Source: Gammaproteobacteria bacterium
GTDB lineage: Bacteria; Pseudomonadota; Gammaproteobacteria; Steroidobacterales; Steroidobacteraceae
Length of the DNA: 32,080 nt
Direction of reading: 5' to 3'
Assembly: GCA_009926865.1 (NCBI GenBank)
Contig: RFOD01000026.1
Coordinates: forward strand, 1 to 32,080
The notes under the pieces were generated by a model. That model was not told where the DNA came from and searched no databases. It worked only from the letters and a program-made list of their open reading frames with translations. The stretch's first letter is position 1. Every line of letters begins with the position of its first letter. Positions 2,668 through 28,226 of the stretch are shown one piece after another. The translations under genes and the position numbers were made by a program.

Positions 2668-2712
2668 GTCGACATGTTAACAAGCTAGAGGCGTGACCGC
2701 AGTTGCTGGGTC

Positions 2713-3957: not shown

Positions 3958-4028
3958 AGCGACGATTATCCGCCTCGGCGGCAAGTTCGCGGGGCGGGTA
4001 ACCCCCGATCATCCGCAGGGAGGTCGGC

Positions 4029-6023: not shown

Positions 6024-7123
6024 GGATTAGGCAGACTCGCACCGAATACGTAGGTGGCGCCACCGGGACGACGTGCGTAATCGGCAAAACAGTGCTCAGC
6101 AGGAAAGTCCGCCTGTTGCATCGCCTTCAACATATCCGTCTCCGCAAAACCCGTCCAGAACGGCTCACCGTTCCAACGCACCTGCCAATCGTTCATGACC
6201 TGATCATCCAGCCCAAGTCGCGTTACTTGCGTCGCCACATCGACATGCAGCATGGCGCCACCCGGCGCTAGAACTCGACGGCACTCGCGAAGAATGGCGG
6301 GTAGATGGGTAGCATTGGTCTCGTGGAAGAAAATATTAGACACGACCAAATCAAAACTGGCTGAATCAAGCCCCGTCGCTGCGGCATCGGCCTGACGAAA
6401 CTCGATGGGAATACCGCGCTCTGCAGCAATGAGATGACCAAAACGCAGCAAGCCCGCAGCGACATCCACCGCCACGTATTGCGCCTCGGGGTAAGCTCGC
6501 GCAATCGCCTGCGAATGTACGCCGATTCCACAACCCAAATCCAAAATGCGGCGTGGACGTAAATCCGGGAAGCGCTGCTTGAGTTCGTTCAACAATAAGT
6601 TCGCGCGTCCATCGCCGGTCGCATGCCGCTGGCCCTTGCCGACGCCATAAATCAACGAAGCGCCGATGTAGCGAAGGCCCGGGGTGAGATCATCTTTATC
6701 GATGGCTCCGACATAGCCCCCCGGCTGACGATGAATCTCGGTGTCGCTAATGGGCGTCGGAATGGTAAGCGTCGGATCTAAATGCAGACTGCCCACGGCT
6801 GGCGCAGCTGCAAAACGCTGGCGCGCATCGGCCGCCACGCGTTGCGTCGTCGCCTCAATGGCATCCCACATCATCGTTTGTGAGTGATGCGTGAGCACGG
6901 CCCAACGACGAAACTCGGGGGTTTGCTCAAGCGCCGATTGGACATCGTCGCGTCGGCTAGGCGTGACGCCGCGCATCGTGGTGAGCTGGGGCGCCACTCG
7001 GCTCTGATAGGCCTCGCGTACTTTTTGTTGCGCCGAACCGTTCGCCAAATATTTGAGGCCCAAGATAAAATCTTGTCGCGCCTGCTCTATGGCGTTGACC
7101 GTATAAACACTTTGCTCACTCAT
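6020..7123 (-). CDS. class I SAM-dependent methyltransferase, unknown substrate
   Basis: About 367 residues from the ATG at 7123, which follows an AGAGAG ribosome-binding site; an upstream in-frame start at 7186 would overlap the preceding gene and is less likely. The C-terminal half is a Rossmann methyltransferase: motif I ILDLGCGIGVHSQAIA (near residue 193), the acidic end of beta-2 in YVAVDVAAG, motif IV LVVSNIFFHET and a following ILRECRRVLAPGGAML. The N-terminal ~150 residues are helical, contain conserved-looking Trp and His residues (RRWAVLTHHSQTMMW) and match no domain I recognise. It starts 35 bp after the binding-protein stop and its TGA overlaps the flavoenzyme ATG, so methylation and flavin chemistry are probably in one pathway. 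Confidence 0.88.
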   Translation of the reverse strand: MSEQSVYTVNAIEQARQDFILGLKYLANGSAQQKVREAYQSRVAPQLTTMRGVTPSRRDDVQSALEQTPEFRRWAVLTHHSQTMMWDAIEATTQRVAADARQRFAAAPAVGSLHLDPTLTIPTPISDTEIHRQPGGYVGAIDKDDLTPGLRYIGASLIYGVGKGQRHATGDGRANLLLNELKQRFPDLRPRRILDLGCGIGVHSQAIARAYPEAQYVAVDVAAGLLRFGHLIAAERGIPIEFRQADAAATGLDSASFDLVVSNIFFHETNATHLPAILRECRRVLAPGGAMLHVDVATQVTRLGLDDQVMNDWQVRWNGEPFWTGFAETDMLKAMQQADFPAEHCFADYARRPGGATYVFGASLPNP

Positions 7124-7158
7124 ACTGCTCTCTTTCAAATGGGCTATTGTGGCGCCAC

Positions 7159-8754
7159 TCAGCGAGACCCGACACTCATCAACCACGTGGGATACAAGCC
7201 GCGCGGATTATCCGCAAATCCACTGACACGCTTGGACACAAGCCGGCGACCCACCAAATAATAGACGGGGGCAACCGGCTGATCTTTGAGTACCATTGAC
7301 TCTGCTTGGCGCAGGATAGCCGAACGCTGCGTGACATCGACTTCTTGGGCGGCTTTCGCAAGAAGACCATCAAACTGCGGATTACGATAACCTGCAGTAT
7401 TCATACCCACCGCCGAGCCGACTGAAAGCATCCGCTCAAGGTAGGCATACGGGTCGCTGAATGAGGCGAGCCAAACAAATCGGGCCGCATCAAAATTACC
7501 TACGCCCACTTCTGTCACCAGAGCTTTAGTTTCTTTTTGCTGCAAATCAGCCCGCACCCCCACCTGACTCCACATCGCACCGATCGCGACCGCCACCTTG
7601 CGGTTAAGATCGGTGCTTGGAAACGCTAGGCGAATTCGTAGCGGCTTACCCGGCCCGTATCCGGCTTCCGCCAGTAATCGCTTGGCTTCGGCCAAACGCT
7701 TAGCCGAGCCCCAGGTGGCGTAATCCGGTTGCGCGCCGCGGTCGTAGTTGAGGACCCCCGGTGGCACGATGGAGTAGGCACCCACCCCCGGGAAACCCAG
7801 CACATTACGCGCGATCACCTCGCGCTCAATCGCCATCGCCAGTGCTCGACGGACACGCACATCCGCGGTGGGTCCACTGCGCGTATTGAAGACCACAACC
7901 TCGTTGGCGATCCCACGACCGAGTCGTAACGACTCCCCGTGCTGCGCTCTTAGCTCGTCCGTTCGCTCAGGGGGCACCACCATGATCAAGTCGAGCTCAC
8001 CGGCATTAAAACGTCGAACCAAGGTTCCAGGATTTCCAAGCGGATAGTGCACGACGCCATCGAGCTTGACTTGATCGGCACCCCAAAAATTGGGATTCAC
8101 CCGCGCTCGTACATAAGCGTTAGGTCGCCACTCCTCCAAGACAAACGGGCCGTTGCTGACAATGTTTTCGGGCCGCAACCACTCATTGCCATGTTTTTCG
8201 ATCACATGGCGCGGTACGGGCATCGCTGCCGCGGCGATCACATCAATAAAATAAGGCGTCGGATTTTCCAGCTCGATCCGTACCGTCTGAGGATCGGGTG
8301 CGGATACCGCAAGCGCCGTGACCGGCATGGCACCGGTCGCGATAGCACGGGCATTACGGATCGGAAATAAACGCGACGCCAACGGAAAAGCGGTCGCCGG
8401 ATCCAGCATTCGACGGAAGGAGTACACCCAATCCTCGCTGGTGAGCGCCCGTCCGTCTGACCATTTCAAATTACGACGCAGCTTGAAGTCGTATCGGCGG
8501 CCATCGGCACTCAAGGTCCAAGATTCGGCACTACCCGGGATTGGCCGACCGGTCATACCCGGCGTCGTTAAACTCATGAAGAGATCAAGTACCACCAACT
8601 GTTCGCCTGGCAGGGAGACTTTATGCGGGTCGATAGTGGCCGGATCATCCGTCCCCACCCGGTGAAAAATGCGCTCCGCACCGAATGCCATTGCTCCCCA
8701 CAGGCTCGAGGCCGTAATAAGCAAGAGCATCCCAAGCCGAATCGAGCGCAGCAT
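7159..8754 (-). CDS. oligopeptide ABC transporter solute-binding protein, SBP_bac_5 family
   Basis: About 531 residues with a Sec signal peptide (basic MLRSIRLG, hydrophobic MLLLITASSLWGAMAFG, cleavage probably near AFGA/ER). Mature-domain family blocks are RVGTDDPATIDPHKVSLPGE, LKWSDGRALTSEDWVYSFRR and the late PVAPVYYLVGRRLVSK. Two in-frame ATGs exist: the one at 8760 touches the AGGAGG Shine-Dalgarno directly, while the one at 8754 has six bases of spacing, so 8754 is the likely start. It is the first protein gene after tRNA-Arg on this strand and heads the methyltransferase-flavoenzyme-MFS set. It resembles the binding protein at 1024-2667 but uses a Sec rather than a Tat signal. No ABC permease is nearby. 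Confidence 0.92.
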   Translation of the reverse strand: MLRSIRLGMLLLITASSLWGAMAFGAERIFHRVGTDDPATIDPHKVSLPGEQLVVLDLFMSLTTPGMTGRPIPGSAESWTLSADGRRYDFKLRRNLKWSDGRALTSEDWVYSFRRMLDPATAFPLASRLFPIRNARAIATGAMPVTALAVSAPDPQTVRIELENPTPYFIDVIAAAAMPVPRHVIEKHGNEWLRPENIVSNGPFVLEEWRPNAYVRARVNPNFWGADQVKLDGVVHYPLGNPGTLVRRFNAGELDLIMVVPPERTDELRAQHGESLRLGRGIANEVVVFNTRSGPTADVRVRRALAMAIEREVIARNVLGFPGVGAYSIVPPGVLNYDRGAQPDYATWGSAKRLAEAKRLLAEAGYGPGKPLRIRLAFPSTDLNRKVAVAIGAMWSQVGVRADLQQKETKALVTEVGVGNFDAARFVWLASFSDPYAYLERMLSVGSAVGMNTAGYRNPQFDGLLAKAAQEVDVTQRSAILRQAESMVLKDQPVAPVYYLVGRRLVSKRVSGFADNPRGLYPTWLMSVGSR

Positions 8755-8773
8755 CGTCATCCTCCTGTTACCA

Positions 8774-9412: not shown

Positions 9413-9440
9413 TTGTTGTCTACGCATGCCGGGATACACT
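9413..9440 (+). promoter_or_regulatory. putative sigma-70 promoter giving a leaderless moeA transcript
   Basis: TTGTTG at 9413-9418, a 16-base spacer and TACACT at 9435-9440 form a plausible -35/-10 pair. A start seven bases after the -10 box falls on the A of the moeA ATG at 9447, and no Shine-Dalgarno precedes that ATG, so the transcript may be leaderless. The consensus match and spacing are seen directly; leaderless initiation is inferred. Confidence 0.5.
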
Positions 9441-9449
9441 CCCGGCATG
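9425..9449. promoter_or_regulatory. perfect 10-bp inverted repeat spanning the moeA -10 box and start codon
   Basis: CATGCCGGGA (9425-9434) and TCCCGGCATG (9440-9449) are exact inverted repeats around a five-base centre TACAC. The centre is most of the proposed -10 hexamer and the right arm ends in the moeA ATG. The arrangement suits an operator for a dimeric regulator, or a hairpin hiding the start codon. It does not resemble the ModE operator, and no downstream T-run supports a terminator. Confidence 0.5.
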
Positions 9450-10655
9450 ATTTCTCCTGCTGAAGCCGATCAGCTCATTGCCGAGCATTTGACCTGCCTG
9501 CCCATCGAGTCCTTGCCACTCGTGCAGTGCTTTGGCTCGATCTTGCGTGAAAACATCTACGCCGAACGGGATCAACCCCCGTTTGACCGAGTCGCGATGG
9601 ACGGCGTTGCGTTATCGAGCGAGGCTGTGCGAGCGGGTCGACGCGAGTTCATATGGCAGGCCATGCAGGCAGCCGGTGATCCGCCACTGACCCTGCAAAA
9701 TGACGCCTCGGCGATCGAGATCATGACGGGGGCCGTGCTACCCGCCGGTGCGGACGCCATCGTCCCGGTCGAGCAGCTGCAACGCATACAGGAGAAGATC
9801 CTGCTCAACCCGGATCTACTCGTCAAAGCCCGACAGAATGTGCATGCGCGAGGTAGCGACGGTCTGCAGGGCACTCAACTATTGACGGCGGGGTTGAAAC
9901 TGGGCGGACCGGATATCGCCATCGCGGCGGGCGCAGGTATGGCGCGTATCCGCGTCAGCGCTCAACCGCGCATGTTGGTGGTCTCCACGGGTAATGAACT
10001 CATCGAACCCGGTGAAGCGATCGAGCCACATCAGATTCGCCGCTCCAACGCTTACGGCATGGTCGCGAGTCTCAGACAAAACGGCTTTCAAAGAATTGCA
10101 GATGATCATCTACCTGATGATTTCGATACCTTGAAGACGCGCCTGCGAGTCCACCTCGATACCCATGACGTGCTGATCCTCTCAGGCGGGGTCTCGATGG
10201 GTAAGCTCGATTTGATTCCCAAAGTCTTAGAGGAATTGGGCGTGCGTCAGGTCTTTCACAAGATCACGCAGCGACCCGGTAAACCTCTGTGGTTTGGCAT
10301 CGGGCCTGCCGGTACGGCGGTATTCGCGTTGCCGGGTAACCCCGTCTCGAGTCTCGTCTGTCTCACCCGCTACGTGATACCGGGGCTCTATCAGGCGATG
10401 GGTGAAAACACTATGCCACCCGAGCGCATCGCCTTAGCGGCCGAGTTTGAAGTCAAACCCGCACTCACCTATTTTTTACCAGTACGAGTTGTGCAGGATG
10501 ATTGGGGTCGGTTTTGGGCCGAGCCGCGGCCCACCAATGGGTCGGGTGATTTCAGTTCACTTAGCGGGACCGACGGATTTTTGGAACTGCCCCCAGGACC
10601 TCAGGCCTACGCCAAAGGTTTTGTGAGCCGCCTATATCGATGGAATAGAACGTGA
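9447..10655 (+). CDS. moeA: molybdopterin molybdotransferase MoeA
   Basis: 402 residues, close to the usual ~410. MoeA inserts molybdate into adenylylated molybdopterin in the cytoplasm, the last step of Mo-molybdopterin formation. Seen in order: N-terminal MoeA domain with PPFDRVAMDGVAL (catalytic-type Asp near residue 52), the jelly-roll segment with TGAVLPAGADAIVPVEQ, the G-domain with VVSTGNELIEPGE, ILSGGVSMGKLDLIPKVLEE and FALPGNPVSSLV, and the C-terminal domain IV. The ATG at 9447 is chosen because the family begins ISPAEA-like and the promoter places transcription there; an upstream ATG at 9426 lies in the inverted repeat. Its stop overlaps the moaA GTG, making it first gene of the Moco operon. 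Confidence 0.95.
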   Translation: MISPAEADQLIAEHLTCLPIESLPLVQCFGSILRENIYAERDQPPFDRVAMDGVALSSEAVRAGRREFIWQAMQAAGDPPLTLQNDASAIEIMTGAVLPAGADAIVPVEQLQRIQEKILLNPDLLVKARQNVHARGSDGLQGTQLLTAGLKLGGPDIAIAAGAGMARIRVSAQPRMLVVSTGNELIEPGEAIEPHQIRRSNAYGMVASLRQNGFQRIADDHLPDDFDTLKTRLRVHLDTHDVLILSGGVSMGKLDLIPKVLEELGVRQVFHKITQRPGKPLWFGIGPAGTAVFALPGNPVSSLVCLTRYVIPGLYQAMGENTMPPERIALAAEFEVKPALTYFLPVRVVQDDWGRFWAEPRPTNGSGDFSSLSGTDGFLELPPGPQAYAKGFVSRLYRWNRT

Positions 10656-11673: not shown

Positions 11674-12207
11674 ATGAGCCCGCGTAAACCCGTAGCCCGT
11701 TCGCAAACTGTGCAGCCAAAGAAAAAAGTCAGTCGCTCAGGCCTAACGCATTTAGACCCCAAGAATCGACCCCAAATGGTCGATGTGTCCAGTAAATCGG
11801 TCAGCCTGCGCACAGCGACCGCCGAGGCTCGCGTGGTGCTACCGACACCGGTACAACGGGCTTTGAAAGCGTCGGGACATCAATCCAAAAAAGGACCCGT
11901 CTTTGCGACGGCGATCATTGCCGGCGTGCAAGCGGTCAAGCGAACGGCGGAACTGATTCCGCTCTGTCACCCGCTGCCGCTTGAGCATATCGAGATCGAT
12001 ATCACACCCCAACGAGGGGGCGCTCTCCAGATCGTGTGCACTGTGAAAACACAGCACACCACGGGCGTGGAAATGGAAGCGTTAACCGGAGCGAGTGTCG
12101 CAGCGCTCACGATCTATGATATGTGCAAAGCGCTGTCCCACGATATCGTGATCGAGTCGGTGCGCTTGCGGAAAAAAACCGGGGGTAAGCGTGACTTTGA
12201 GCGCTGA
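11674..12207 (+). CDS. moaC: cyclic pyranopterin monophosphate synthase MoaC
   Basis: 177 residues; turns the MoaA product into cyclic pyranopterin monophosphate. The conserved core begins at about residue 33 (QMVDVSSK) and includes LIPLCHPLPLEHIEID (residues 95-109), GVEMEALTGASVAALTIYDM (131-150) with catalytic-type Asp149 and Lys152, and SVRLRKKTGGKRDF near the end. The first ~30 residues are a basic, Ser/Lys/Arg-rich extension absent from most MoaC proteins (about 160 residues). The TGA overlaps the next gene's GTG by 17 bases. Confidence 0.96.
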   Translation: MSPRKPVARSQTVQPKKKVSRSGLTHLDPKNRPQMVDVSSKSVSLRTATAEARVVLPTPVQRALKASGHQSKKGPVFATAIIAGVQAVKRTAELIPLCHPLPLEHIEIDITPQRGGALQIVCTVKTQHTTGVEMEALTGASVAALTIYDMCKALSHDIVIESVRLRKKTGGKRDFER

Positions 12208-13042
12208 GAGACCCCTCTTCGGCTTAGTATTGGCGGGTGGCCACAGCCGGCGGATGCAGCGCGATAAAGCGGCACTCGCCTACGCTGGGCAACCTCAATT
12301 GACCCGCGCGATGGCGCAACTCGCATCCCTCACGGATCAGTGCTTTGTCTCCGTTCGGCCCGACCAAGTTAATGAGCCATTGCGCGCGCAATGGCCCCAA
12401 ATCATTGATCGCGAAGGGGAGAGCGGCCCTCTGGCAGGCATCCGCGCCGCGCAGGCCTACGCACCTCATGCGGCTTGGTGGGTGCTCGCTTGCGATTTAC
12501 CGCGACTCGAGCCTGCGGCCTTAGAACATTTGCTTGCCAAACGTGATTCAAGTCAATTCGCGACCTGCTATCTGTCTGCTCATGATGGCTTACCGGAGCC
12601 GTTGTGCACCCTCTATGAACCGGCCTCGGCACCCGCATTAGAGCAATACGCGCGAAACGGCGGTCGATGTCCACGTAAGTTTCTTCTGACGCACCCTGTC
12701 TGCACGCTAGAGCCGTTTTCACCCGAGGCTCTCGACAACATCAATTCCGCAGATGAATATTGGCAAGCCATGCAAGATAGTCGCTTACACCACGCCCCTG
12801 CGCGTCGCTTAACGCTCAAATACTTTGCCGTGCTGCGCGAGCAAGCCGGTCGCAGTAGCGAAACCATTGAGACCGAGACGAGCTCGGCCGCTGCGCTCTA
12901 TGCAGAGCTGCGCGCCAAGTACGATTTCACGCTACCCGAGGCAATGCTGAAGGTAGCCATCAACGGCGAGTTTACCGATTGGAGCACACCACTCGCCGAC
13001 GGCGATGAAGTGGTCTTTATTCCACCCGTTGCGGGAGGCTAA
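12191..13042 (+). CDS. MobA-MoaD fusion: molybdenum cofactor guanylyltransferase joined to molybdopterin synthase sulfur carrier
   Basis: 283 residues in two parts. Residues 1-~193 are MobA-like nucleotidyltransferase: LVLAGGHSRRMQRDKAALAY (13-32, P-loop-like GTP site with Lys26), ESGPLAGIRAAQ, WVLACDLPRLEP (metal-binding Asp102) and LDNINSADEY. Residues ~205-283 are a full MoaD: LTLKYFAVLREQAG at the start and FIPPVAGG at the end, with the free C-terminal Gly-Gly that is adenylylated and thiocarboxylated. The linker is only about ten residues. MobA converts Mo-MPT to the bis-MGD form used by DMSO-reductase-family enzymes, as encoded at 18781. The GTG at 12191 lies inside moaC after GGGGGTAAGC. 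The TAA directly abuts the MoaE fusion gene. I know of no standard fusion of this pair. Confidence 0.93.
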   Translation: MTLSAERPLFGLVLAGGHSRRMQRDKAALAYAGQPQLTRAMAQLASLTDQCFVSVRPDQVNEPLRAQWPQIIDREGESGPLAGIRAAQAYAPHAAWWVLACDLPRLEPAALEHLLAKRDSSQFATCYLSAHDGLPEPLCTLYEPASAPALEQYARNGGRCPRKFLLTHPVCTLEPFSPEALDNINSADEYWQAMQDSRLHHAPARRLTLKYFAVLREQAGRSSETIETETSSAAALYAELRAKYDFTLPEAMLKVAINGEFTDWSTPLADGDEVVFIPPVAGG

Positions 13043-14644
13043 GTGTCCGCGGCGCGCTTTACATTTAGCCAAAGTCCCCTCGATGGCGCAGCCCTCAGAG
13101 AGCGCCTGACCGATGTACGCTGCGGTGGATTTTGTGCCTTTGAGGGCTGGGTACGCGACCACAACGAAGGTCGAGCCGTCCGTCGCCTTGAATATGAGGC
13201 CTTCGAAGCGCTCGCCGTCACCGAGGGCGAACGCATTATCGCCGAGGCCTGTGAGCGTTTTGGGGTCACGCGGGCGCTTTGCGTGCACCGAGTTGGCGAT
13301 CTCGATCTAGGCGAGATGGCTGTTTGGGTAGGTGTCAGCGCCGGCCATCGGGATGAAGCGTTCAAGGCGGCACGCTATATCATTGACGAAGTTAAACATC
13401 GTGTCCCGATCTGGAAAAAAGAGCATTACGTCGATGGGGATTCGGGCTGGGTGAATTGCGAGCGTTGCGCCGTGCACGCCCACGATCACTCCCACGATCA
13501 CGATCACGATCACGACCATCACCACGCCCAAGCACAGAGCCCGGCGACCGTGTCACCGTCCGTGGACTACAGCCGTCAGCGCGCGCTTGCGCAGGTGGGT
13601 GAGCCCGGTCAGGCAAAGCTACGCGCGAGTCGTGTCGCCGTCATTGGGGCCGGCGGACTTGGGGTCCCAGTGATGCAATATTTAGCGGGTGCGGGTATCG
13701 GCCATCTCACCGTCATCGATGGCGATGCGCTTCAGGCCTCTAATCTGCATCGGCAGACCTGGTACGCCTTAAGTGAGTGCGGGCAACCCAAAGCGCAGCT
13801 CGCCGAAGCACGTATTCGAGCCTTAAACCCAGAGGTATCGATCAAAAGTCACCTCGAGCGACTTTCCGCTCAAAACATCGACACCTTACTAGTGGAACAT
13901 GACGTACTGATCGATTGCTCGGATAATTTTCGCTGCAAATTTTTACTCAATGATTGGGCGCAAACCCACGGTGTGCCCCTCGTGACCGCGAGTGTCCACC
14001 AGTTTGAGGGTCAGCTACAGGTCATTGACCCGAGACGCCGTAGCAGTTGTCTACGCTGCCAATGGCCACGGGCCACCGAAGATGGTGTCGTGGGCACTTG
14101 CGCCGAAGCAGGTGTACTTGGCCCCACGCCCGGCGTACTCGGTAGCCTGCAGGCACTCGAGGCATTGAAATTGATTCTGGATATGCCAGGTTCGCTCGGC
14201 GATGAAGTCCTGCTCGTGGACTTACTGCACCTGGGCACCCAGCGCCTGCGTAGCCGACGCCGATCAGGCTGCCAAGATCGCTGTGCGCTATCTATGGAGG
14301 GGCTTGAGGCAGCGAAGGAAGCGGCACAAGCCACCTCGGCCATGACCGATAACGCGGCAGATCTCGAGCTTTTCTTTGATGATTTACGTATTGCAGAGCA
14401 ACAGGGTCTACAGCTGATCGATATCCGTGATCACAAAGAAATCGGACAAGCGCCCTTACCGCTTGCGAGTATCCCTCACCGCCCCATGCTGGAGTTACTT
14501 TCAGGCGACAACTTACCGCAGGCGGGACGCTACCTACTTATTTGCAGTCGTGGCCAACGCAGTCTCACGGCCGCCAGACGCCTACGGGAGCGCGGTCTCG
14601 AAGCCTATTCCCTTAAAGGGGGCGCGGTACGCTGGCAATCTTGA
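13043..14644 (+). CDS. MoaE-MoeB-rhodanese fusion: molybdopterin synthase large subunit with its E1-like sulfurylation module
   Basis: 533 residues. Residues 1-~142 are MoaE, with the catalytic Lys pair region KHRVPIWKKE (118-127). A His/Asp linker follows (145-161). Residues ~175-415 are a MoeB/ThiF adenylyltransferase: VAVIGAGGLGVPVMQYLAGA, VIDGDALQASNLHRQ, the thioester-type Cys353 in GTCAEAGVLGP, and zinc cysteines Cys336, Cys339, Cys410 and Cys414 (the last pair CxxxC rather than CxxC). Residues ~440-533 are a rhodanese domain with active-site loop CSRGQRS (Cys501). One chain could therefore activate MoaD, load sulfur and use it in molybdopterin synthase. The GTG start is directly after the previous TAA, with GGGAGG upstream. 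A shorter MoeB-rhodanese arrangement is known (MOCS3-like); joining MoaE is the odd part. Confidence 0.93.
   Translation: MSAARFTFSQSPLDGAALRERLTDVRCGGFCAFEGWVRDHNEGRAVRRLEYEAFEALAVTEGERIIAEACERFGVTRALCVHRVGDLDLGEMAVWVGVSAGHRDEAFKAARYIIDEVKHRVPIWKKEHYVDGDSGWVNCERCAVHAHDHSHDHDHDHDHHHAQAQSPATVSPSVDYSRQRALAQVGEPGQAKLRASRVAVIGAGGLGVPVMQYLAGAGIGHLTVIDGDALQASNLHRQTWYALSECGQPKAQLAEARIRALNPEVSIKSHLERLSAQNIDTLLVEHDVLIDCSDNFRCKFLLNDWAQTHGVPLVTASVHQFEGQLQVIDPRRRSSCLRCQWPRATEDGVVGTCAEAGVLGPTPGVLGSLQALEALKLILDMPGSLGDEVLLVDLLHLGTQRLRSRRRSGCQDRCALSMEGLEAAKEAAQATSAMTDNAADLELFFDDLRIAEQQGLQLIDIRDHKEIGQAPLPLASIPHRPMLELLSGDNLPQAGRYLLICSRGQRSLTAARRLRERGLEAYSLKGGAVRWQS
13475..13525 (+). repeat. GATCAC-type hexamer repeat encoding a His/Asp linker
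   Basis: Imperfect tandem copies of CACGAT encode alternating His and Asp (residues 145-161 of the MoaE-MoeB-rhodanese protein, ten His in seventeen residues). It lies exactly at the MoaE/MoeB domain junction, so it is a coding low-complexity linker. It could bind metal such as zinc, nickel or copper. Replication slippage may change its length between strains. Confidence 0.85.
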
Positions 14645-18686: not shown

Positions 18687-18780
18687 TTTGCACTTCGTGC
18701 TCGCGCGCTGTGCTCGCACCAGTCGCGCTGCGAGAGTCATCGTTCGATAGAAGCAGTTGTGATTCGTAAGGAGAGTCGTC

Positions 18781-21741
18781 ATGAACTTGTCCGTGCTGTT
18801 ATGGGGTATTCCGCAGGCCATGCGCGCCATGGCCAAGATTTACCCTGAATATGCGGCCCGACTCAAAGAACGTGATCTCATCGCACAGTTTCGCTTGCGT
18901 GATCGACCCGAGGGACGTTGGATTCAGCTACAGGGCGGAAAAGTACGGACGGGCAAAGGTCTGCATGCTACGCCGGATCTCGTGATTCACTTCAAAAATA
19001 GAGAAATTGCCGAAAGCTTCCTGACGCCTCCTTTCGACTTGCTTGAGCGAGTCGATGCAGCCAAAAATTTCAAACTGGGCTTTGACGGCCCTGACGATCT
19101 GGCCGTGTGGTTCATGGCTACGCTCGCCCGACTGGAGTCCGTGACTTGGAAATCTGGCACCGATATGGGTGACGGCGTCAAGCGTTACACCAACGGCACC
19201 AACACGGGCCCCATTTTTGTTTATGTCAAAGACGGCAAGATCATCCGCACGACACCGATCGATTTTACGGACGAAGACGCCCCCTCGTGGGCGCTGCATG
19301 CGCGAGGCCAAACCTTCAAGCCTTCGCGTCGTACGACGGTTGCCTCGCACGGTATGTGCCAAAAGTCGATGGTCTACTCAAAGAATCGAATTCTCTATCC
19401 AATGAAGCGCGTGGACTTTGATCCGGACGGTGAGCGCAACATCCAAAATCGCGGTAAATCCAAATTCGTACGCATCAGCTGGGAAGAAGCGACAGAGATT
19501 GTTAGCAAAGAAATTAAACGCGCGAAGGCAGTGGGCCCAGGCGCGATCTGCGTCGCCAACGGCTCGCATCACCAGTGGGGCAATCTCGGACACTACTTAA
19601 GCGCCTTTAATCGTTTCTGGAACCTCATTGGCGTGACCAAACTCGTGCACAACCCCGACAGCTGGGAAGGCTGGTTCTGGGGCGCCATGCACCACTGGGG
19701 TAATAGCTTACGTCTTGGCTGCCCTGAGTTTTATGGGACTGTCGAAGATTGCTTGCAGGAAGCCGAACTAATGGTGTTTTGGTCGAGTGACCCTGATGCC
19801 ACCTATGGTTTTGATGGTACCGAGCGACGCGAGTGGGCGAAGCAGCTCGGCATCAAGATGATCCACATTGATCCCTACCTCAATCACACGGCCGCGCACC
19901 TCGGCGGTAAGTGGATCTCACCGAAGCCTGGTACGGATGCCGCGATGGCCCAGGCGATTTGCCATGTCTGGATCACAGAGGGTCTCTACGACAAAGAATA
20001 CGTTGAGAAACGGACGACAGGCTTTGATGAGTGGAAGGCCTATATCTTGGGTGAATCGGACGGTGTTGCCAAAACACCCGAGTGGCAAGAAGCCGAAACG
20101 GGCGTCCCCGCGCGGGATGTGCGGGCACTCGCTCGCGAGTGGGGCACCAAAAAGACCTATCTCGGTGCCGGCGGCTGGGGGGTGGGCCTCGGCGGCGCCA
20201 ACCGCGGCCCGATGGGCGTGCAATGGGCACGCATGATGACCATCCTCGGCGCCATGCAAGGTCCGGGGCGTCCGGGGTCAAACTTTGGCAATCTACAGTT
20301 TGGCGCACCGCTCGATTTCAACTTTTATTTCCCGGGTTATTCAGAGGGAAGTTTCTCGGGCGAACTGCAGTTCAGCGCGAACTCCGCCAATAACTATCAG
20401 CGTATGCCGCACATCGTGACCATGAGCTCGGTCCGACAGGCGATCCCAAGAATATGGCTGCCCGAGGCGATCACCCAAGGCCGCGCACTCGGCTACGTCA
20501 CGGACGTCTCGTCGGTCCAGGGACAGTTTTTCCCCATCGGCTATCCCTCGCCCGGTCACGTCCGGGTCGAGATGCTCTACAAGTACGGCAGCGCATCCTT
20601 TGGCACGATGGTGGACTCCAACCGCTGGGTCCGAATGTACCAGCATGAGAGCCTCAAATTTGTAGTGAACCAGTCGGTTTGGTGGGAAGGCGAGACCCCC
20701 TACGCTGACATCATCTTGCCCGCGTGCACGGTCTTTGAACGCTGGGATATCAGTGAGTGGTACAACGTAGGCGCAGGCTATGTGCATCACATGTACTCGA
20801 TGAACAATCACCGTGTGGTGACCTTGCAGCACAAGGCCATCGAACCGCTCGGTGAATCGAAATCCGACTACGACATATTTTTGGCGGTCGCGGAAAAACT
20901 CGATCTTGGAGCTGTGTATTCCGAGGGCGGTACCACCGAGCTCGATTGGTGCAAGCGCGTGTTCGAATCCTCGGATCTCGCTAAGCTCATCTCTTGGCGC
21001 GAATTTTTGCAAAAGGGCTATTACGTGATTCCGCCAGACCCCGAGGCCGCCCGCGCGCCCACGGCGCAGCGCTGGTACTACGAGGGCCGCAAAAAAGACA
21101 CCCCCGAGCCCTACCCGCTGCCCTCAGACTATGTGGATGGCTACGGCAAAGGCCTGCAAACCCCATCGGGTAAGTTTGAGTTCGTGGCGCAGACGCTCAA
21201 ACGGATTGATGACCCGGATCGACCACCGCTTAATCAATATATGCCGCGCTATGAAGATCCCTCGCGAGACCCTGAGGTCGCGGACTTCCCCTTACAGCTC
21301 TTGTCTCCCCACTCGCGCTACCCATTCCACGTGATGGGGGATGATGAGGGCAGTAGCCTCTTGGATATTCGCGAACACCGCGTGTTCAAAGACGGTCGCT
21401 ATTACCTCACGGCGCGTCTCAATCGCGAGGACGCGGCCGCGCGTGGCATCAAAGATGACGATTTAATTCGGCTCTGGAACCACCGTGGCTCGGTGGTCTG
21501 CGCCGCCCAAGTCACCGATCGTTTACGTCCAGGCGTGGTCAGTGCACCGACCGGTTCCGCACAATATTGCCCCGTTGGAGAGCCCGGTAAATCGACAGAT
21601 CTCGGTGGCTGCGTCAATTTATTGAGCCCGAGTAAGGCCATCACCCAAAAATCCCACGGTATTCGCCCTAACACCACTCGTATCCAAATTGAAAAGTGGT
21701 CGGGAGTTGATACGTGGCAACCGTTGGCGGAGAGCGCCTGA
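18781..21741 (+). CDS. SCP2-like domain fused to a pyrogallol-transhydroxylase-type molybdopterin oxidoreductase
   Basis: 986 residues. Residues ~1-118 resemble an SCP2 lipid-binding domain (LIAQFRLRDRPEGRWIQLQG, then PDLVIHFKN, ending FKLGFDGPDDLAVWF). From Met129 onward the chain tracks the large subunit of Pelobacter pyrogallol-phloroglucinol transhydroxylase: GPIFVYVKDGKIIRTTPIDF, YPMKRVDFDPDGERN, SHHQWGN, HNPDSWEGWFWG, FYFPGYSEG, DIILPACTVFERWDISEW. As recalled from that structure, His144, Asp174 and Ser175 (Mo ligand) map to His263, Asp293 and Ser294; Arg153 maps to Tyr272. No CxxCxxxC cluster motif occurs at the N-terminus, matching that family. No signal peptide, so cytoplasmic. AAGGAGAG precedes the ATG. 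Bis-MGD is expected. The true substrate is unknown; hydroxyl transfer or hydration on a lipid-like aromatic is a guess. Confidence 0.9.
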   Translation: MNLSVLLWGIPQAMRAMAKIYPEYAARLKERDLIAQFRLRDRPEGRWIQLQGGKVRTGKGLHATPDLVIHFKNREIAESFLTPPFDLLERVDAAKNFKLGFDGPDDLAVWFMATLARLESVTWKSGTDMGDGVKRYTNGTNTGPIFVYVKDGKIIRTTPIDFTDEDAPSWALHARGQTFKPSRRTTVASHGMCQKSMVYSKNRILYPMKRVDFDPDGERNIQNRGKSKFVRISWEEATEIVSKEIKRAKAVGPGAICVANGSHHQWGNLGHYLSAFNRFWNLIGVTKLVHNPDSWEGWFWGAMHHWGNSLRLGCPEFYGTVEDCLQEAELMVFWSSDPDATYGFDGTERREWAKQLGIKMIHIDPYLNHTAAHLGGKWISPKPGTDAAMAQAICHVWITEGLYDKEYVEKRTTGFDEWKAYILGESDGVAKTPEWQEAETGVPARDVRALAREWGTKKTYLGAGGWGVGLGGANRGPMGVQWARMMTILGAMQGPGRPGSNFGNLQFGAPLDFNFYFPGYSEGSFSGELQFSANSANNYQRMPHIVTMSSVRQAIPRIWLPEAITQGRALGYVTDVSSVQGQFFPIGYPSPGHVRVEMLYKYGSASFGTMVDSNRWVRMYQHESLKFVVNQSVWWEGETPYADIILPACTVFERWDISEWYNVGAGYVHHMYSMNNHRVVTLQHKAIEPLGESKSDYDIFLAVAEKLDLGAVYSEGGTTELDWCKRVFESSDLAKLISWREFLQKGYYVIPPDPEAARAPTAQRWYYEGRKKDTPEPYPLPSDYVDGYGKGLQTPSGKFEFVAQTLKRIDDPDRPPLNQYMPRYEDPSRDPEVADFPLQLLSPHSRYPFHVMGDDEGSSLLDIREHRVFKDGRYYLTARLNREDAAARGIKDDDLIRLWNHRGSVVCAAQVTDRLRPGVVSAPTGSAQYCPVGEPGKSTDLGGCVNLLSPSKAITQKSHGIRPNTTRIQIEKWSGVDTWQPLAESA

Positions 21742-22586
21742 TGAGCAAGAGCTGGCATTTGATCGTCGATGTGGAGCGCTGCAATAACTGTCGCGCCTGC
21801 TTTCTGGCCGTCAAAGACGAATACATTGGGAATGACTTCCCAGGGTACTCCGCACCCCAACCTGCGCAGGGCCACAATTGGCTCGACATCCGTCGGCATG
21901 AACGCGGTCGATATCCCATCGTCGATGCGCATTTCGTCCCGGTGATGTGTAACCACTGCGAAGATGCGCCCTGCATGAAAGTCGCTGAGAATGGCGCGGT
22001 CACGCGGCGTGATGATGGTCTCGTGATCATTGATCCCGTTAAAGCCAAAGGGCAAAAGCAGATCGCAGAGGCCTGCCCCTATGGCGCAGTCAGCTGGAAC
22101 GAAGAGGCGCAACTCCCGCAGGCTTGGACTTTCGATGCCCACCTACTCGATCAGGGCTGGGATCGGGTCCGTGCCGAGCAGTGCTGCCCCACCGGCGTGT
22201 TCCGGACCCTCAAAGTCGACGATGCCGAAATGCAACGCCTGACCGAGGCCGAAAATCTCACGGTGCTGCAACCTGAGCTCGGTACTCGCCCGCGCGTGCA
22301 CTACAAGAATATGCACCTCATCACCGACTGCTTCATCAGCGGTACGGTGGTGGAAAATCGTCAAGGCGTGGAGGAATGCGTGGCCGAGGCAGAGGTCGTG
22401 CTCTCGCGTGAAGGTGTGGAAATCGCTCGCACGCGCACCGACACCTTTGGCGAGTTCAAGCTCGATCATCTCCCACCCCACAGTGGCGAATATCAGGTGG
22501 AGGTGTCTGGGCCAGCCGGGCGCCAGCAAGCGCAAGTCACGCTGGGCGCTGAAAGTCCCTATATCGGCGTGCTGACGCTGCGCTGA
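21741..22586 (+). CDS. transhydroxylase-type iron-sulfur small subunit with C-terminal beta domain
   Basis: 281 residues from the ATG at 21741, which shares its A with the large-subunit TGA (TGATG) behind GGAGAG. The N-terminal ~155 residues are ferredoxin-like: Cys14-x2-Cys17-x2-Cys20, Cys70-x2-Cys73-x4-Cys78, Cys112 in EACPYGA and Cys148-Cys149. PELGTRPRVHYKNMH bridges to a C-terminal beta-sandwich (residues ~200-281, carboxypeptidase-regulatory/transthyretin-like, with TFGEFKLDHL). This domain order is that of the transhydroxylase small subunit. The usual fourth Cys of the first motif is Val (FLAV) and the CxxC expected after the ACPYG segment is missing (WTFDAH), so fewer clusters than the three of the Pelobacter enzyme are likely. 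It should act with the 18781 protein in the cytoplasm. Confidence 0.9.
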   Translation: MSKSWHLIVDVERCNNCRACFLAVKDEYIGNDFPGYSAPQPAQGHNWLDIRRHERGRYPIVDAHFVPVMCNHCEDAPCMKVAENGAVTRRDDGLVIIDPVKAKGQKQIAEACPYGAVSWNEEAQLPQAWTFDAHLLDQGWDRVRAEQCCPTGVFRTLKVDDAEMQRLTEAENLTVLQPELGTRPRVHYKNMHLITDCFISGTVVENRQGVEECVAEAEVVLSREGVEIARTRTDTFGEFKLDHLPPHSGEYQVEVSGPAGRQQAQVTLGAESPYIGVLTLR

Positions 22587-23773: not shown

Positions 23774-24757
23774 ATGACCGCGCCCACTCTGTCTTCGCCC
23801 TCGACACCACGCTGGCGCCGTGGCTGGCAAGCGCTCATCCGTTGGTTCGACACAGGGCCACTTGAGGTGCCAGCCGATGGCGTAGCACTGGCTGCGATTC
23901 CGGATCGAGTGGAATGGACGCGGATCCTGCCTTTCATTGGCATGCATCTCGCTTGTTTGGGCGTGATCTGGGTGGGCTGGAGTCCGGTGGCGGTGCTGGT
24001 GGCCGTCCTCGCCTACTTCGTGCGCATGTTTGCGATCACGGGCTTCTACCACCGTTACTTCTCACATCGTTCGTTTAAAACGTCGCGGCTCGGCCAATTT
24101 ATCTTTGGCGTGATCGGCGCGACGGCAGTGCAGCGCGGCCCGGTTTGGTGGGCAGCTCACCATCGCCATCACCACGCGTATTCGGATCGACCGGAGGATG
24201 TGCACTCGCCCGCCCAGCACGGATTCCTGCGCTCGCACATGGGATGGTTTTTGACCGCGCGCGGTTTCCAGCCCGATCTGCGCCGAGTCCGAGATCTTTT
24301 GAAGTTCCCGGAACTTCAATGGCTCGATCGATTCGATATCGTGGTCCCTGTGCTCTTTGCCGTCAGCATGTTCGGCTTGGGCGGACTCTTGCAGTCGATT
24401 GCCCCCGAGCTCGGCACCAGCGCCGGACAAATGCTCATCTGGGGGTTTTTCATCTCGACGGTTGCCTGCTATCACGGCACGTACACGATCAACTCGCTCT
24501 CGCATGTCTTTGGTAAGCAGCGCTATCGTACCGGAGATACCAGTCGCAATAACTGGCTACTTGCCCTAGTAACGCTTGGCGAAGGCTGGCATAACAATCA
24601 TCACTTTTATCCGAGCGCGACCCGCCAAGGCTTTTATTGGTGGGAGATCGATATCACCTACTACCTCCTCAAATTACTGAACTGGATGGGCATTATTTGG
24701 GATCTCAAGCCCATCCCAGCGCAAGTACGCGATCACTCACCGCGTAGGCTGCGCTAA
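23774..24757 (+). CDS. acyl-CoA / fatty acid delta-9-type desaturase
   Basis: 327 residues of a membrane di-iron desaturase. The three histidine boxes are present: HRYFSH (93-98), HHRHHH (129-134) and HNNHH (273-277 in GEGWHNNHHFYPS), with NSLSHVFG adding another ligand. Hydrophobic helices lie around residues 50-90 and 185-235. The product introduces a double bond into an acyl chain (CoA- or lipid-linked) at the inner membrane using O2. It heads the lipid set: the FAD protein starts five bases after the stop. Its product would be the natural substrate for the methylase at 26907. Electron donor and exact regiochemistry cannot be read. Confidence 0.94.
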   Translation: MTAPTLSSPSTPRWRRGWQALIRWFDTGPLEVPADGVALAAIPDRVEWTRILPFIGMHLACLGVIWVGWSPVAVLVAVLAYFVRMFAITGFYHRYFSHRSFKTSRLGQFIFGVIGATAVQRGPVWWAAHHRHHHAYSDRPEDVHSPAQHGFLRSHMGWFLTARGFQPDLRRVRDLLKFPELQWLDRFDIVVPVLFAVSMFGLGGLLQSIAPELGTSAGQMLIWGFFISTVACYHGTYTINSLSHVFGKQRYRTGDTSRNNWLLALVTLGEGWHNNHHFYPSATRQGFYWWEIDITYYLLKLLNWMGIIWDLKPIPAQVRDHSPRRLR

Positions 24758-24762
24758 GCACG

Positions 24763-26079
24763 ATGGCTCGCATCGCCATCGTCGGTAGCGGAATTGCCGG
24801 TCTCACCAGCGCTTGGCATCTACACCGACATCACGACATCGCGCTCTTTGAAGCAAACGACTACGTAGGCGGCCATACGGCGACCGTCGATGTGGAGTAT
24901 GGCGGTCAGCACTACGCGATCGATACCGGCTTCATCGTATTCAATGATTGGACCTATCCCAACTTCATCTCGCTTCTTGAGGCCATCGGTGCTCGCTGGC
25001 AATGGTCCAATATGAGTTTTTCGTTGCGCTGCGAGCGCACGGGCCTTGAGTACAACGGCACCTCCCTAAACTCGCTCTTCGCGCAGCGTAGTAACCTACT
25101 TAATCCCGCGTTTTTGCGTATGCTCGTGGATATCCTGCGCTTCAATACGCGTAGCCGTGCGCTACTGGAGGACACCCGTTTTGAAACGCTGACGCTCGGT
25201 GAATATCTACGCGCTAGCGGCTATTCTCGCGCGTTCATCGAGCGTTATGTGATTCCCATGGGTCGCGCGATTTGGTCCGCCACAGGCTCTGGCATGCTGG
25301 AGTTCCCCGCACGCTTTTTTGTGGATTTTTTTGATCGCCACGGCTTTTTGAATATTAATGATCGCCCGACCTGGCGCACGATCTGCGGCGGCTCTCGCGA
25401 GTACGCTCGTAAACTGATCGCACCGTTTACAGAAAAGATTCGTCTTAACACACCCGTCAAGGCAGTCACTCGATTAGAGGATGGTCGGGTACGCCTACAG
25501 AGCGAGGGGCCAGAGGGTCAAAGTGATGAATACTTTGATCGCGTGTTCTTCGCCTGTCATAGCGATCAAGCCCTATCAATGCTGACCGACGCAACCGCCT
25601 TGGAGCGGGACGTGCTCGGGGCCTTTCCGTATCAACTGAACGATGCGACGCTACACACCGATGAGCGTGTACTGCCACGCACACCGCTCGCCCGAGCCGC
25701 CTGGAACTACCATCTGCTAGATCCCGATACGGAGCGCGTCGCACTCACCTATGACATGAACGTGCTGCAGTCGATTGAGGCGCCCGTACGCTTTTTGGTG
25801 ACTCTGAATCGAGAATCCGACATCGACCCTGCGCAGATTCTCGGTCGCTATCGTTATCACCACCCGGTTTACACCCCTGCTGCCGTCCGTGCGCAGCAAC
25901 AACGCGAAGCGCTCAATCGGGGTAGCAGCTACTTTTGTGGAGCCTACTGGCGTTACGGATTTCATGAGGACGGCGTCGTGAGCGCGTTATGGGCGCTCAC
26001 CGATCACGCCACCCAGCACGGACTGACACCCCCGCCGGCACCCCTATTGGCGCCGGTGAGACGTAGCCTGCATCGATAA
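24763..26079 (+). CDS. FAD-dependent amine-oxidase-like protein (COG2907 type)
   Basis: 438 residues. The N-terminus ARIAIVGSGIAGLTSAWHLH is an FAD-binding Rossmann loop followed by the acidic FEANDYVGGHTATVD ribose-binding segment. YAIDTGFIVFNDWTYPNF and GMLEFPARFFVDFFDRHGF are characteristic of the COG2907 flavoproteins that sit with DUF1365 and cyclopropane-synthase-like genes in many proteobacteria. It is often annotated as NAD/FAD-binding protein or amine oxidase; a lipid desaturase or oxidase role is more likely from context. It starts five bases after the desaturase and ends ten bases before the DUF1365 gene. The chemistry is not established from sequence. Confidence 0.9.
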   Translation: MARIAIVGSGIAGLTSAWHLHRHHDIALFEANDYVGGHTATVDVEYGGQHYAIDTGFIVFNDWTYPNFISLLEAIGARWQWSNMSFSLRCERTGLEYNGTSLNSLFAQRSNLLNPAFLRMLVDILRFNTRSRALLEDTRFETLTLGEYLRASGYSRAFIERYVIPMGRAIWSATGSGMLEFPARFFVDFFDRHGFLNINDRPTWRTICGGSREYARKLIAPFTEKIRLNTPVKAVTRLEDGRVRLQSEGPEGQSDEYFDRVFFACHSDQALSMLTDATALERDVLGAFPYQLNDATLHTDERVLPRTPLARAAWNYHLLDPDTERVALTYDMNVLQSIEAPVRFLVTLNRESDIDPAQILGRYRYHHPVYTPAAVRAQQQREALNRGSSYFCGAYWRYGFHEDGVVSALWALTDHATQHGLTPPPAPLLAPVRRSLHR

Positions 26080-26089
26080 GCCCGCTGCA

Positions 26090-26851
26090 ATGAAAAGCTG
26101 CCTCTACGAAGGGTTCATCCGCCACCGACGCTTCACACCACGCGTCAATGATTTTCGGTACCAACTTTTTTTGATGTATCTCGACTTATCTGAGTTGCCT
26201 CAATTATTCGATAAGTACTGGTTTTGGTCCGCACGGCGCCCAGCCCTCGCATGGTTTCGAAGAGCCGATTTTCTCGGTGACCCCTCCCAATCGCTCGATA
26301 CGGCAGTGCGCGATCGAATCGAAACGGAATTTGGGGTACGACCGAGCGGACCTATTCGATTACTCACCCATATCCGCTACTTTGGCTACAACTTTAACCC
26401 CGTCAATTTTTACTACGTTTTTGACGAGGCGGACACAGCGCTTGAATATGTGGTCGCGGAGATCACCAATACACCCTGGGATGAGCGTCATGCCTACGTG
26501 CTCCGCCTGGCCGATGCAGAAGCCGTCGGTGCGCAGGTAAAGCGCTGGCAGTTTGATAAGGCTTTTCACGTGTCACCGTTTTTGCCCATGGACATGCGTT
26601 ACGACTGGCGGTTTACGGCTCCGAGCTCCTCGCTCGCCGTCCACATGGAAAACTCGCAAAATGGACAGCGAGTCTTCGATGCAACACTCACCTTGAGTCA
26701 AGTACCGCTTACCAGCTACGCTTTGGCGCGAGCCTTGTTAGCCTTTCCGTTGATGACGGTCAAAGTCAGTGCACTGATCTACTGGCAGGCGCTCAAGCTA
26801 TGGCTCAAACGAACACCTTTTTTTACTCATCCGGACAAACAACCCCAATAA
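26090..26851 (+). CDS. DUF1365 family protein
   Basis: 253 residues matching the DUF1365 family: CLYEGFIRHRRFTPRVNDFR at the start, then LLTHIRYFGYNFNPVNFYYV and VVAEITNTPWDERHAYVL, and the KAFHVSPFLPMDMRYDWRF block. A hydrophobic C-terminal helix may tether it to the membrane. The function is unknown; the family is almost always encoded between a COG2907 flavoprotein and a CFA-synthase-like methylase, as here, implying a role in fatty-acyl modification. It begins ten bases after the preceding stop. Confidence 0.92.
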   Translation: MKSCLYEGFIRHRRFTPRVNDFRYQLFLMYLDLSELPQLFDKYWFWSARRPALAWFRRADFLGDPSQSLDTAVRDRIETEFGVRPSGPIRLLTHIRYFGYNFNPVNFYYVFDEADTALEYVVAEITNTPWDERHAYVLRLADAEAVGAQVKRWQFDKAFHVSPFLPMDMRYDWRFTAPSSSLAVHMENSQNGQRVFDATLTLSQVPLTSYALARALLAFPLMTVKVSALIYWQALKLWLKRTPFFTHPDKQPQ

Positions 26852-26906
26852 GCACCCCGATAAGCTCTGATGTGATCCCGCTCTGTCTGCCCCTTGTGAT
26901 CCCCCT

Positions 26907-28226
26907 ATGAGTCGAGAACCGCTAACGAAATCATCCATCATTCCTCTCGACTCGGGCTCGGTGGCCGATGTCGTCTCGCGGTTGGGGACGCCGAGCGCGC
27001 TGGCCCGTCTGGGTCGTCACCTCCTACTCAAACAATTTGAGCAGTTACGTGAGGGGGAATTACACCTCGTCGAAGCCGATGGCCAACATCATCGATTTGG
27101 CGCGCGCACAGCGCGTCTCGACGTCTCGGTCACCCTGCGCGTCCATCACCCACAGCTATTCGCCGATGCGGCCTTCGGGGGTACCGTCGGTGCCGGCGAG
27201 GCGTACATTCGTGGGCTATGGCAGTGCGATGATCTGACCAACCTAATCCGACTCTTTGTCGCTAATCGCGATGTCATGGACGGTCTCGATCGTCGCTGGG
27301 CCCTGATCAGTCGGCCTTTTCTGAAACTTTTTCATTTCTGGCATCGCAATAGCCGCCAAGGGAGCGCGCGTAATATCGCCGCGCACTACGATTTGGGTAA
27401 TGCGCTCTATGAATTGATGCTAGATCCCACCATGGCTTACTCCTGCGGAATTTTCGACGACGAGCAAAGCACGCTGGAACAGGCGTCGATCGCCAAGTTC
27501 GATGCGGTGTGTCGCAAGTTACGCCTGCAGCCTGGGGACTCAGTCGTGGAGATCGGCACGGGCTGGGGTGGGCTCGCCATTCACGCGGCACAGCACTATG
27601 GCGCCAAGGTCACGACCACCACCATCTCGCGTGAGCAACATGACTATGCTCGCGAACAAATCGATCGCTTAGGGCTACACGATCGCATCACTTTGCTGCT
27701 CGAAGATTATCGCGACTTACGCGGGCAATTCGATAAGGCCATGTCGATTGAGATGATCGAAGCAGTCGGTGCCGAATACTTAGATACCTATCTCAAAAAA
27801 TGCTCGCAGTTATTAGCACCCCATGGGGCGATGCTACTGCAAGCGATCACCATCCAAGATCAGTTCTACGAACAAGCGCGTAAATCCGTCGATTACATAC
27901 AACGCTTTATTTTCCCAGGCAGTTTCATTCCGAGCGTCACGACGATTGCCGAGTCACTCACGCGGACGACCGACCTCAAAATCTCCCACTTGGAAGATAT
28001 CGGACCGCATTACGCGCGAACCTTGCGCGAGTGGCGACATAACTTCATGGGACAGCTCGATCGGGTGCGTGAACTAGGCTATCCCGACAGCTTTATCCGT
28101 TTGTGGGAGTACTATCTATGCTACTGCGAGGGTGGCTTTGCAGAGCGGCAACTCGGTGATGTGCAAATATTGCTGACTAAACCGGATTGTCGCTTACCCG
28201 CGATTGCCTGGACCGCTAGGTCATGA
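26907..28226 (+). CDS. cyclopropane-fatty-acyl-phospholipid synthase-like methyltransferase
   Basis: 439 residues. An N-terminal lipid-binding region (to about 140) precedes a SAM-methyltransferase domain: HYDLGNALYELMLDPTMAYS, the CFA hallmark SCGIF, motif I VVEIGTGWGGLAIHAA, then MSIEMIEAVGAEYLDTY and YIQRFIFPGSFIPSV. CFA synthases transfer a methylene from SAM to a cis double bond of membrane phospholipids. The sequence QAITIQDQFYE replaces the HTI-type segment of the E. coli enzyme, as in the CFA-like subgroup, so methylation without ring closure is possible. Its TGA overlaps the next gene's ATG (ATGA). Confidence 0.93.
   Translation: MSREPLTKSSIIPLDSGSVADVVSRLGTPSALARLGRHLLLKQFEQLREGELHLVEADGQHHRFGARTARLDVSVTLRVHHPQLFADAAFGGTVGAGEAYIRGLWQCDDLTNLIRLFVANRDVMDGLDRRWALISRPFLKLFHFWHRNSRQGSARNIAAHYDLGNALYELMLDPTMAYSCGIFDDEQSTLEQASIAKFDAVCRKLRLQPGDSVVEIGTGWGGLAIHAAQHYGAKVTTTTISREQHDYAREQIDRLGLHDRITLLLEDYRDLRGQFDKAMSIEMIEAVGAEYLDTYLKKCSQLLAPHGAMLLQAITIQDQFYEQARKSVDYIQRFIFPGSFIPSVTTIAESLTRTTDLKISHLEDIGPHYARTLREWRHNFMGQLDRVRELGYPDSFIRLWEYYLCYCEGGFAERQLGDVQILLTKPDCRLPAIAWTARS

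Follow-up and report, generated by a model that had tools for sequence, protein, structure and literature searches.

We analyzed a stretch of 32,080 nucleotides (the window), contig RFOD01000026.1 of assembly GCA_009926865.1 from a gammaproteobacterium of the family Steroidobacteraceae, and in it two adjacent genes, tthL and tthS, that resemble those for the large and small subunits of the transhydroxylase TthLS of Pelobacter acidigallici. That enzyme converts pyrogallol to phloroglucinol with a recycled tetrahydroxy co-substrate, 1,2,3,5-tetrahydroxybenzene. The large subunit in the window carries an additional N-terminal domain, predicted to be SCP2-like, and is called SCP2-TthL here. Judged from the sequences, the pair on balance probably encodes a variant of the TthLS family with a serine-ligated bis(molybdopterin guanine dinucleotide) (bis-MGD) cofactor that acts on phenols, and SCP2-TthL is a recurring and apparently unstudied form of this pyrogallol-converting enzyme.

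The large subunit and its N-terminal domain

The open reading frame (ORF) of SCP2-TthL (18781-21741, plus strand) starts with ATG, is uninterrupted by stops and encodes 986 amino acids. Its best sequence match in the PDB was 4v4c_A, the large subunit TthL of P. acidigallici (E = 1e-267), with residues 133-975 aligned to residues 4-869 of the 875 in TthL. Only the Pelobacter enzyme, with three PDB entries, matched at this level; dimethyl sulfoxide (DMSO) and trimethylamine N-oxide reductases ranked second (6.5e-67 and weaker), and acetylene hydratase (2e7z) reached 5.7e-14. The catalytic part is thus closest to TthL and not to another molybdoenzyme class, as an initial annotation of the sequence had proposed, and the motifs which that annotation quoted are all present in the ORF. 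It was also right that the known enzyme begins where the homology begins (TthL residue 4), but the homology starts at residue 133 of the window protein and not at residue 129. The Pfam families found were AhtL-like_1st (PF21423), Molybdopterin (PF00384) and Molydop_binding (PF01568). Residues 133-200 contain a single cysteine, and SCP2-TthL therefore has no N-terminal [4Fe-4S] motif. A full-chain model (mean predicted local distance difference test score [pLDDT], 74) placed 4v4c_A first in a fold search of the PDB as well (E = 7.8e-82, 47% identity).

Residues 1-128 of the window protein matched no Pfam family at E ≤ 1, and their sole PDB sequence match, a dynein chain (E = 0.9), was rejected as chance. 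We compared 44 N-domains, namely, that of the window and 43 from the 73 homologous loci that have the start; many near-duplicates were excluded, as was locus L028, which matches from the start though it has a stop in frame in its N-part. At E ≤ 1, the SCP2 family PF02036 matched 14 of the 44 (best E = 0.0019) and Alkyl_sulf_C matched six (best E = 0.0039), all of them individually weak matches. A model built from the 44 sequences (pLDDT, 83.2; predicted template modeling score, 0.74) had 28 PDB matches at E ≤ 0.001, the best being 3bn8_A (2.0e-05). The matches included SCP2-type proteins (AF1534, insect SCP2-like 2 and, among the best, UbiJ), alkylsulfatases (SdsA1/Pisa1) and YjcS; we take the C-terminal domain of the alkylsulfatases and of YjcS to be SCP2-like. 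According to this model, the N-domain of SCP2-TthL is SCP2-like in its predicted fold, which bears out the earlier description of the first ~118 residues.

The N-part is under purifying selection, with nonsynonymous values (pN) of 0.11 to 0.15 against synonymous values (pS) of 0.65 to 0.86 in nine comparisons, and across 37 rows its mean pairwise identity is 0.62 versus 0.78 for the catalytic part. The window's genome also encodes a separate PF02036 protein. With an N-domain profile, free-standing relatives of the domain were met in 3 of the 369 genomes searched in the class. Stand-alone SCP2-like proteins akin to the N-domain are encoded in L148, L149 and L150 (E = 9.4e-19 to 7.0e-9), and a profile of the catalytic part found no TthL-type gene within these three stretches. 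Among the literature titles searched, mostly outside subscription journals, none joins SCP2 with this transhydroxylase.

Distribution, small subunit and conserved residues

The homologue set consisted of the best 80 of 104 relatives from a scan of genome contigs (79 loci); weaker relatives, perhaps without the N-domain, were left out. The window protein was matched from residue 1-7 in 73 of the 79 loci, and the other six start within the first three bases of their DNA stretch, where the N-domain is not assessable. Because of this pattern, the domain, which none of the 73 assessable loci lacks, is neither a chance occurrence nor the product of a mis-called start, and the fusion proposed in the initial annotation holds. 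Group II, the clade of the window, comprises 72 loci (70 to 88% identical to the window protein) which by record title come from Gammaproteobacteria, Rhodospirillaceae, some Acidobacteriota and a few others. Group I comprises seven loci (L068, L069 and L071-L075; 52 to 55% identical). Among 98 relatives, more distant homologues that lack the N-domain were found in genomes G059 (one 48% and two 36% identical) and G049 (one 48% identical and a 35% fragment). In the tree (53 rows), TthL and the four other rows that lack the N-domain all fell to the same side of a branch supported at 98/99. The tree is effectively unrooted, with an outgroup branch 8.45 long whose attachment is not believable, and so it does not decide between gain and loss of the domain. 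By the sequences compared, the SCP2-like domain is constant throughout a large branch of the TthLS family. In two cases (L070:8001-10945 and L099), SCP2-tthL is broken into two frames near codon 607-610, by an assembly error or in a broken gene.

Within the genus of the window's genome, the gene was found in 13 of 23 genomes, in some as pieces at contig ends, and six genomes without it are 93 to 100% complete. This bears on whether the enzyme could be a hydroxylase of quinone biosynthesis, where UbiT acting with UbiU/V offers an analogy for SCP2 joined with hydroxyl transfer; the place of UbiJ among the best fold matches of the N-domain would speak for it. We regard such a role as very improbable: the gene is patchy even among nearly complete genomes, a separate PF02036 protein is present in the window's own genome, and the gene also occurs in genomes labeled Acidobacteriota.

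The small subunit likely starts at the ATG at 21741, which overlaps the tthL stop as TGATG; the ORF as called starts at GTG 21714. The aligned stretch of TthS has 13 cysteines, including C209, and we treated the other 12 as cluster ligands, presumably of three [4Fe-4S] clusters. The window small subunit has lost C23, C126, C129 and C145 (TthS numbering) and has the remaining 8 of the 12, an observation absent from the initial annotation. We scanned 83 loci (the 79 plus L152-L155) and obtained 81 small-subunit matches, 70 of them in 68 of the 72 group II loci. In 68 of these 70, the same four cysteines are all gone and C13, C16, C19, C68, C71, C76, C109 and C149 are all kept; the other two (L048 and L024, which also has a clean match) are gapped at those positions. 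The four are lost as well in L072, L073, L074 and L075 and in the small subunit of the SCP2 copy of G059 (L152). All 12 are kept in L068 and L069 and in two small subunits beside SCP2-less large subunits of the 48% type (L152 and L153). No match was obtained in L002, L021, L061 and L076, where the DNA stretch ends at or near the gene, or in L071 despite 7.9 kb downstream. Of 62 rows, 56, the window included, have a further cysteine near the C-terminal end of the chain, in the C-terminal part, that TthS lacks.

In ferredoxins, the fourth cysteine of motif I pairs with cysteines 1 to 3 of motif IV in one [4Fe-4S] cluster. Because of this rule and of the near all-or-none co-loss, C23, C126, C129 and C145 would be expected to bind one outer cluster (FS4). 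The loss of this set argues against a conventional redox hydroxylase or dehydroxylase whose electrons would leave via the small subunit, as does the fact that both small subunits beside SCP2-less 48%-type large subunits keep all four cysteines. Resorcinol hydroxylase is a named serine-ligated relative in PMC10100899 and would be the model for such an enzyme; we consider this explanation quite unlikely.

Residue counts refer to 44 aligned rows or, for the comparison of groups, to 37 rows of group II and nine rows of group I. Equivalents of TthL His144, Asp174, Ser175 and Tyr404 are all present in the window protein (Table 1); we take Ser175 to be the molybdenum ligand and assume catalytic roles for the other three. 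The equivalent of Trp176 is kept in 44/44 rows. At the Asp174 position, Ile was seen in L071 and L075 and Glu in L072 and L073. The Tyr152 position, which lies near the active site and is occupied by His in the window, is Tyr in TthL, in 2/2 homologues of the 48% type without SCP2 and in 9/9 group I rows, and Ser in both 36%-type homologues. At the Arg153 position, Tyr is found in 37/37 group II rows, Trp, Tyr or His in group I and Lys in both 48%-type homologues. The two 36%-type homologues retain His144, Asp174, Ser175 and Trp176 and lose Tyr152 and Tyr404. We place tthL-tthS in the TthLS family because of the match to 4v4c_A, the kept catalytic residues and the TthS-like product of the next gene.

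Table 1. Positions of the enzyme genes, their parts and the molybdenum-cofactor genes in the window
Feature	Position	Strand	Remarks
SCP2-TthL, large subunit of the molybdenum enzyme, SCP2-like domain at its N terminus	18781..21741	+	986 amino acids; ORF, Pfam and PDB matches
AAGGAG, ribosome-binding-site-like	18768..18773	+	7 nt 5' of the SCP2-TthL ATG
SCP2-like domain, residues 1-128	18781..19164	+	Predicted fold and PDB matches; PF02036 in 14/44 N-domains, none in window copy
TthL-type catalytic part, residues 133-975	19177..21705	+	4v4c_A, E 1e-267; PF21423, PF00384, PF01568
Codon His263 (TthL His144)	19567..19569	+	His in 44/44 rows
Codon His271 (TthL Tyr152)	19591..19593	+	His in 37/37 rows of the window's clade
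Codons Asp293-Ser294 (TthL Asp174-Ser175)	19657..19662	+	Asp in 40/44, Ser in 44/44 rows
Codon Tyr520 (TthL Tyr404)	20338..20340	+	Tyr in 44/44 rows
TthS-like small subunit	21741..22586	+	4v4c_B, E 2.2e-65; Fer4_11 and C-terminal CarboxypepD_reg; 8/12 cluster cysteines
moeA	9426-10655	+	Mo-cofactor gene
moaA	10652-11668	+	Mo-cofactor gene
mobA-ThiS/moaD fusion	12191-13042	+	Mo-cofactor gene
moaE-ThiF/moeB fusion	13043-14644	+	Mo-cofactor gene

Pathway genes, substrate and reaction

Four families, DPGC, PGR, TfD and TAL, degrade phloroglucinol in Clostridium scatologenes, as described in PMC10470551. In three of the seven group I loci (L068, L069 and L074), all four of these families are represented beside SCP2-tthL by genes for a Cyclase, an SDR, a 3-hydroxyacyl-CoA dehydrogenase and a BKACE protein; these genes share the strand of tthL in L068 and L069, whereas in L074 they are encoded on the other strand (neighbors by sequence clusters; Pfam for the entire L069 set, for three members of the L074 set and for the L068 SDR). 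When ORFs of at least 80 amino acids from the window and the 79 loci were searched, DPGC and TAL profiles matched only these three loci. The L074 small subunit lacks the four cysteines yet sits in such a cluster, so that their loss is compatible with the phloroglucinol pathway. In G059, three of the four pathway families (DPGC, PGR and TfD), together with a cupin, lie ~7 kb from the SCP2-bearing gene; the stretches read there (C18:1-62000) yielded no TAL. This pathway island also contains SCP2-less TthL-type copies: on contig 18 (L151 and L152), there are four TthL-type genes, one with SCP2 and three without (one 48% and two 36% identical), together with three strong DPGC copies. Across the 98 relatives, the DPGC profile exceeded 260 bits in three (G032, G049 and G059) and, with weak matches counted, was matched in 26.

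Because of the clusters in L068, L069 and L074 and the genes in G059, SCP2-bearing enzymes apparently act in plain pyrogallol/phloroglucinol breakdown, and for the deltaproteobacterial branch, pyrogallol to phloroglucinol is most likely the reaction. Since phloroglucinol clusters adjoin SCP2-bearing genes, the presence of SCP2 does not by itself prove a hydrophobic substrate, and the step taken in the initial annotation from the domain to a hydrophobic or coenzyme A (CoA)-linked substrate lacks firm support. A different substrate is possible for the window's own clade; group II probably acts on a different phenol, as suggested by the fixed Tyr152-to-His substitution and the absence of DPGC; the lack of TAL in its flanks and the VOC-fold gene upstream in some of its loci (below) are further hints of this.

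Two further explanations concern what the added domain does. It might feed a hydrophobic phenol (lipid-linked, prenylated, sterol-like or CoA-linked) to the transhydroxylase site, which would suit the SCP2 fold, the constancy of the domain, the His fixed in 37/37 clade rows and the lack of DPGC and TAL in the clade's flanks and of DPGC in the window's own genome. We consider this possible but doubtful, as three SCP2-bearing loci lie in phloroglucinol clusters, where a small soluble phenol would be expected. It is likewise conceivable, with only modest confidence, that SCP2 is an add-on serving structure or membrane docking and that all branches are plain pyrogallol-phloroglucinol transhydroxylases. 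The kept catalytic residues, the phloroglucinol clusters in 3/7 sister-group loci and the lower conservation of the N-domain are consistent with an add-on, whereas the clade-specific substitutions argue against it, as does the DPGC profile, which is unmatched in the window's genome and gives weak matches (≤32 bits) in 6 of the 23 same-genus genomes, against 13 of 23 with the gene.

In the serine-ligated TthLS-family variant that we favor, the enzyme would shift hydroxyls between polyhydroxylated aromatic rings with no net redox change. Electrons would probably not leave through the small subunit, the four FS4 cysteines being lost, and the lack of an electron exit would fit a redox-neutral hydroxyl shuffle. 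The SCP2-like domain may bind a phenolic ligand (the substrate or the recycled tetrahydroxy co-substrate) or dock the enzyme, these being the most likely of its roles.

Several points weigh against this reading. The flanks of the window's clade contain no DPGC or TAL by profile search of ORFs of at least 80 amino acids. As the initial annotation stated, no phloroglucinol genes are present among the window genes searched; the window's genome (G000, 96.9% complete), in which DPGC but not PGR, TfD or TAL was searched, gave no DPGC profile match either. Two small subunits (L154 and L155) retain one of the four FS4 cysteines, and the assignment of the four to one cluster follows from the family rule and co-loss, not from the solved structure. 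A hydroxylase resembling resorcinol hydroxylase (RhL), the serine-ligated relative named in PMC10100899, is a less likely possibility. In the full-chain model, pLDDT falls below 50 at the active-site stretches 262-271, 294-316 and 505-551, so that the model does not reveal the pocket or where SCP2 sits with respect to the funnel. The family is also rare: PF21423 was above the cutoff in 1 of 398 genomes in an even draw of the phylum, the window's own only, and in an even draw of the class, 2 of 369 genomes had the fusion by the N-domain profile, which speaks against calling it widespread in the phylum.

Neighboring genes and comparison with known systems

Among group II loci with at least 1,200 bases upstream, a VOC-fold gene stands immediately upstream of tthL on the same strand in 15 of 63. 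Its product has two modules (L010:6841-7836 and 15 further loci), and His191, His243 and Glu326 are invariant in 16/16; we take these residues to resemble the triad of extradiol dioxygenases. The VOC gene was ruled out as a component of the window's own system, since nothing better than a weak VOC match (E = 5.1e-4) was obtained in its genome. A more speculative proposal, which we hold to be unlikely, is that the window's clade is a separate molybdenum transhydroxylase, fed by SCP2 and lacking an electron exit, which rearranges the hydroxyls of a lipophilic phenol and in some species might prime the ring for the upstream VOC-fold dioxygenase-like protein. Other genes near those of group II encode an NmrA-like reductase (10 loci), a TorD-like chaperone (9 loci) and DUF1838 (7 loci), each a sequence cluster with one member named.

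The molybdenum-cofactor operon (Table 1) stands 4 kb upstream of SCP2-TthL; positions 11674-12207 within it were not searched. Homologues of moeA lie near SCP2-tthL in nine other group II loci. PF00384 matches three places in the window's genome, two of them beyond SCP2-TthL, which rules out SCP2-TthL as its sole molybdenum enzyme; given these further matches, we treat the operon as context and do not imply its dedication to SCP2-TthL alone. Elsewhere in the window, a fatty acid desaturase, an amine-oxidase-like flavin adenine dinucleotide (FAD) protein, DUF1365 and a cyclopropane-synthase-like methyltransferase are encoded in a row at 23774-28226, an arrangement that to us resembles lipid-modification clusters. 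At 1024-8760 on the minus strand, an old-yellow-enzyme-like oxidoreductase and a methyltransferase lie between two SBP_bac_5 solute-binding proteins (2713-3984 not searched).

SCP2-TthL represents a recurring branch, with at least 72 loci of species-representative genomes, with an extra carrier-type domain and a trimmed electron path. The branch allows a direct test of whether redox-neutral hydroxyl transfer requires a full set of iron-sulfur clusters, and it offers further candidates for polyphenol breakdown.

Compared with known systems, SCP2-TthL has the bis-MGD DMSO reductase superfamily in common with the gut catechol dehydroxylases and acetylene hydratase. The dehydroxylases are placed away from the transhydroxylase in PMC7028382. 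Acetylene hydratase, a distant match by its E value, has Cys as its molybdenum ligand (PMC10100899), whereas SCP2-TthL has Ser and lacks the N-terminal [4Fe-4S] motif. With the SCP2 superfamily (UbiJ, AF1534, insect SCP2-like 2 and the C-terminal domain of SdsA1/Pisa1), the window domain shares the predicted fold; it differs in being fused to a molybdoenzyme and in lying beyond the reach of the Pfam model. Against Pelobacter TthL, whose chain starts at the molybdopterin part, the window enzyme adds the 128-residue SCP2-like domain and has, by alignment only, His for Tyr152, Tyr for Arg153 and Leu for Trp354; its small subunit lacks four of the TthS cysteines, and its genome has no DPGC match. 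What the window shares with Pelobacter TthLS (4v4c) is the catalytic chain with His144, Asp174, Ser175, Trp176 and Tyr404, the two-gene arrangement of large and small subunits and a small subunit with a C-terminal regulatory-like domain.

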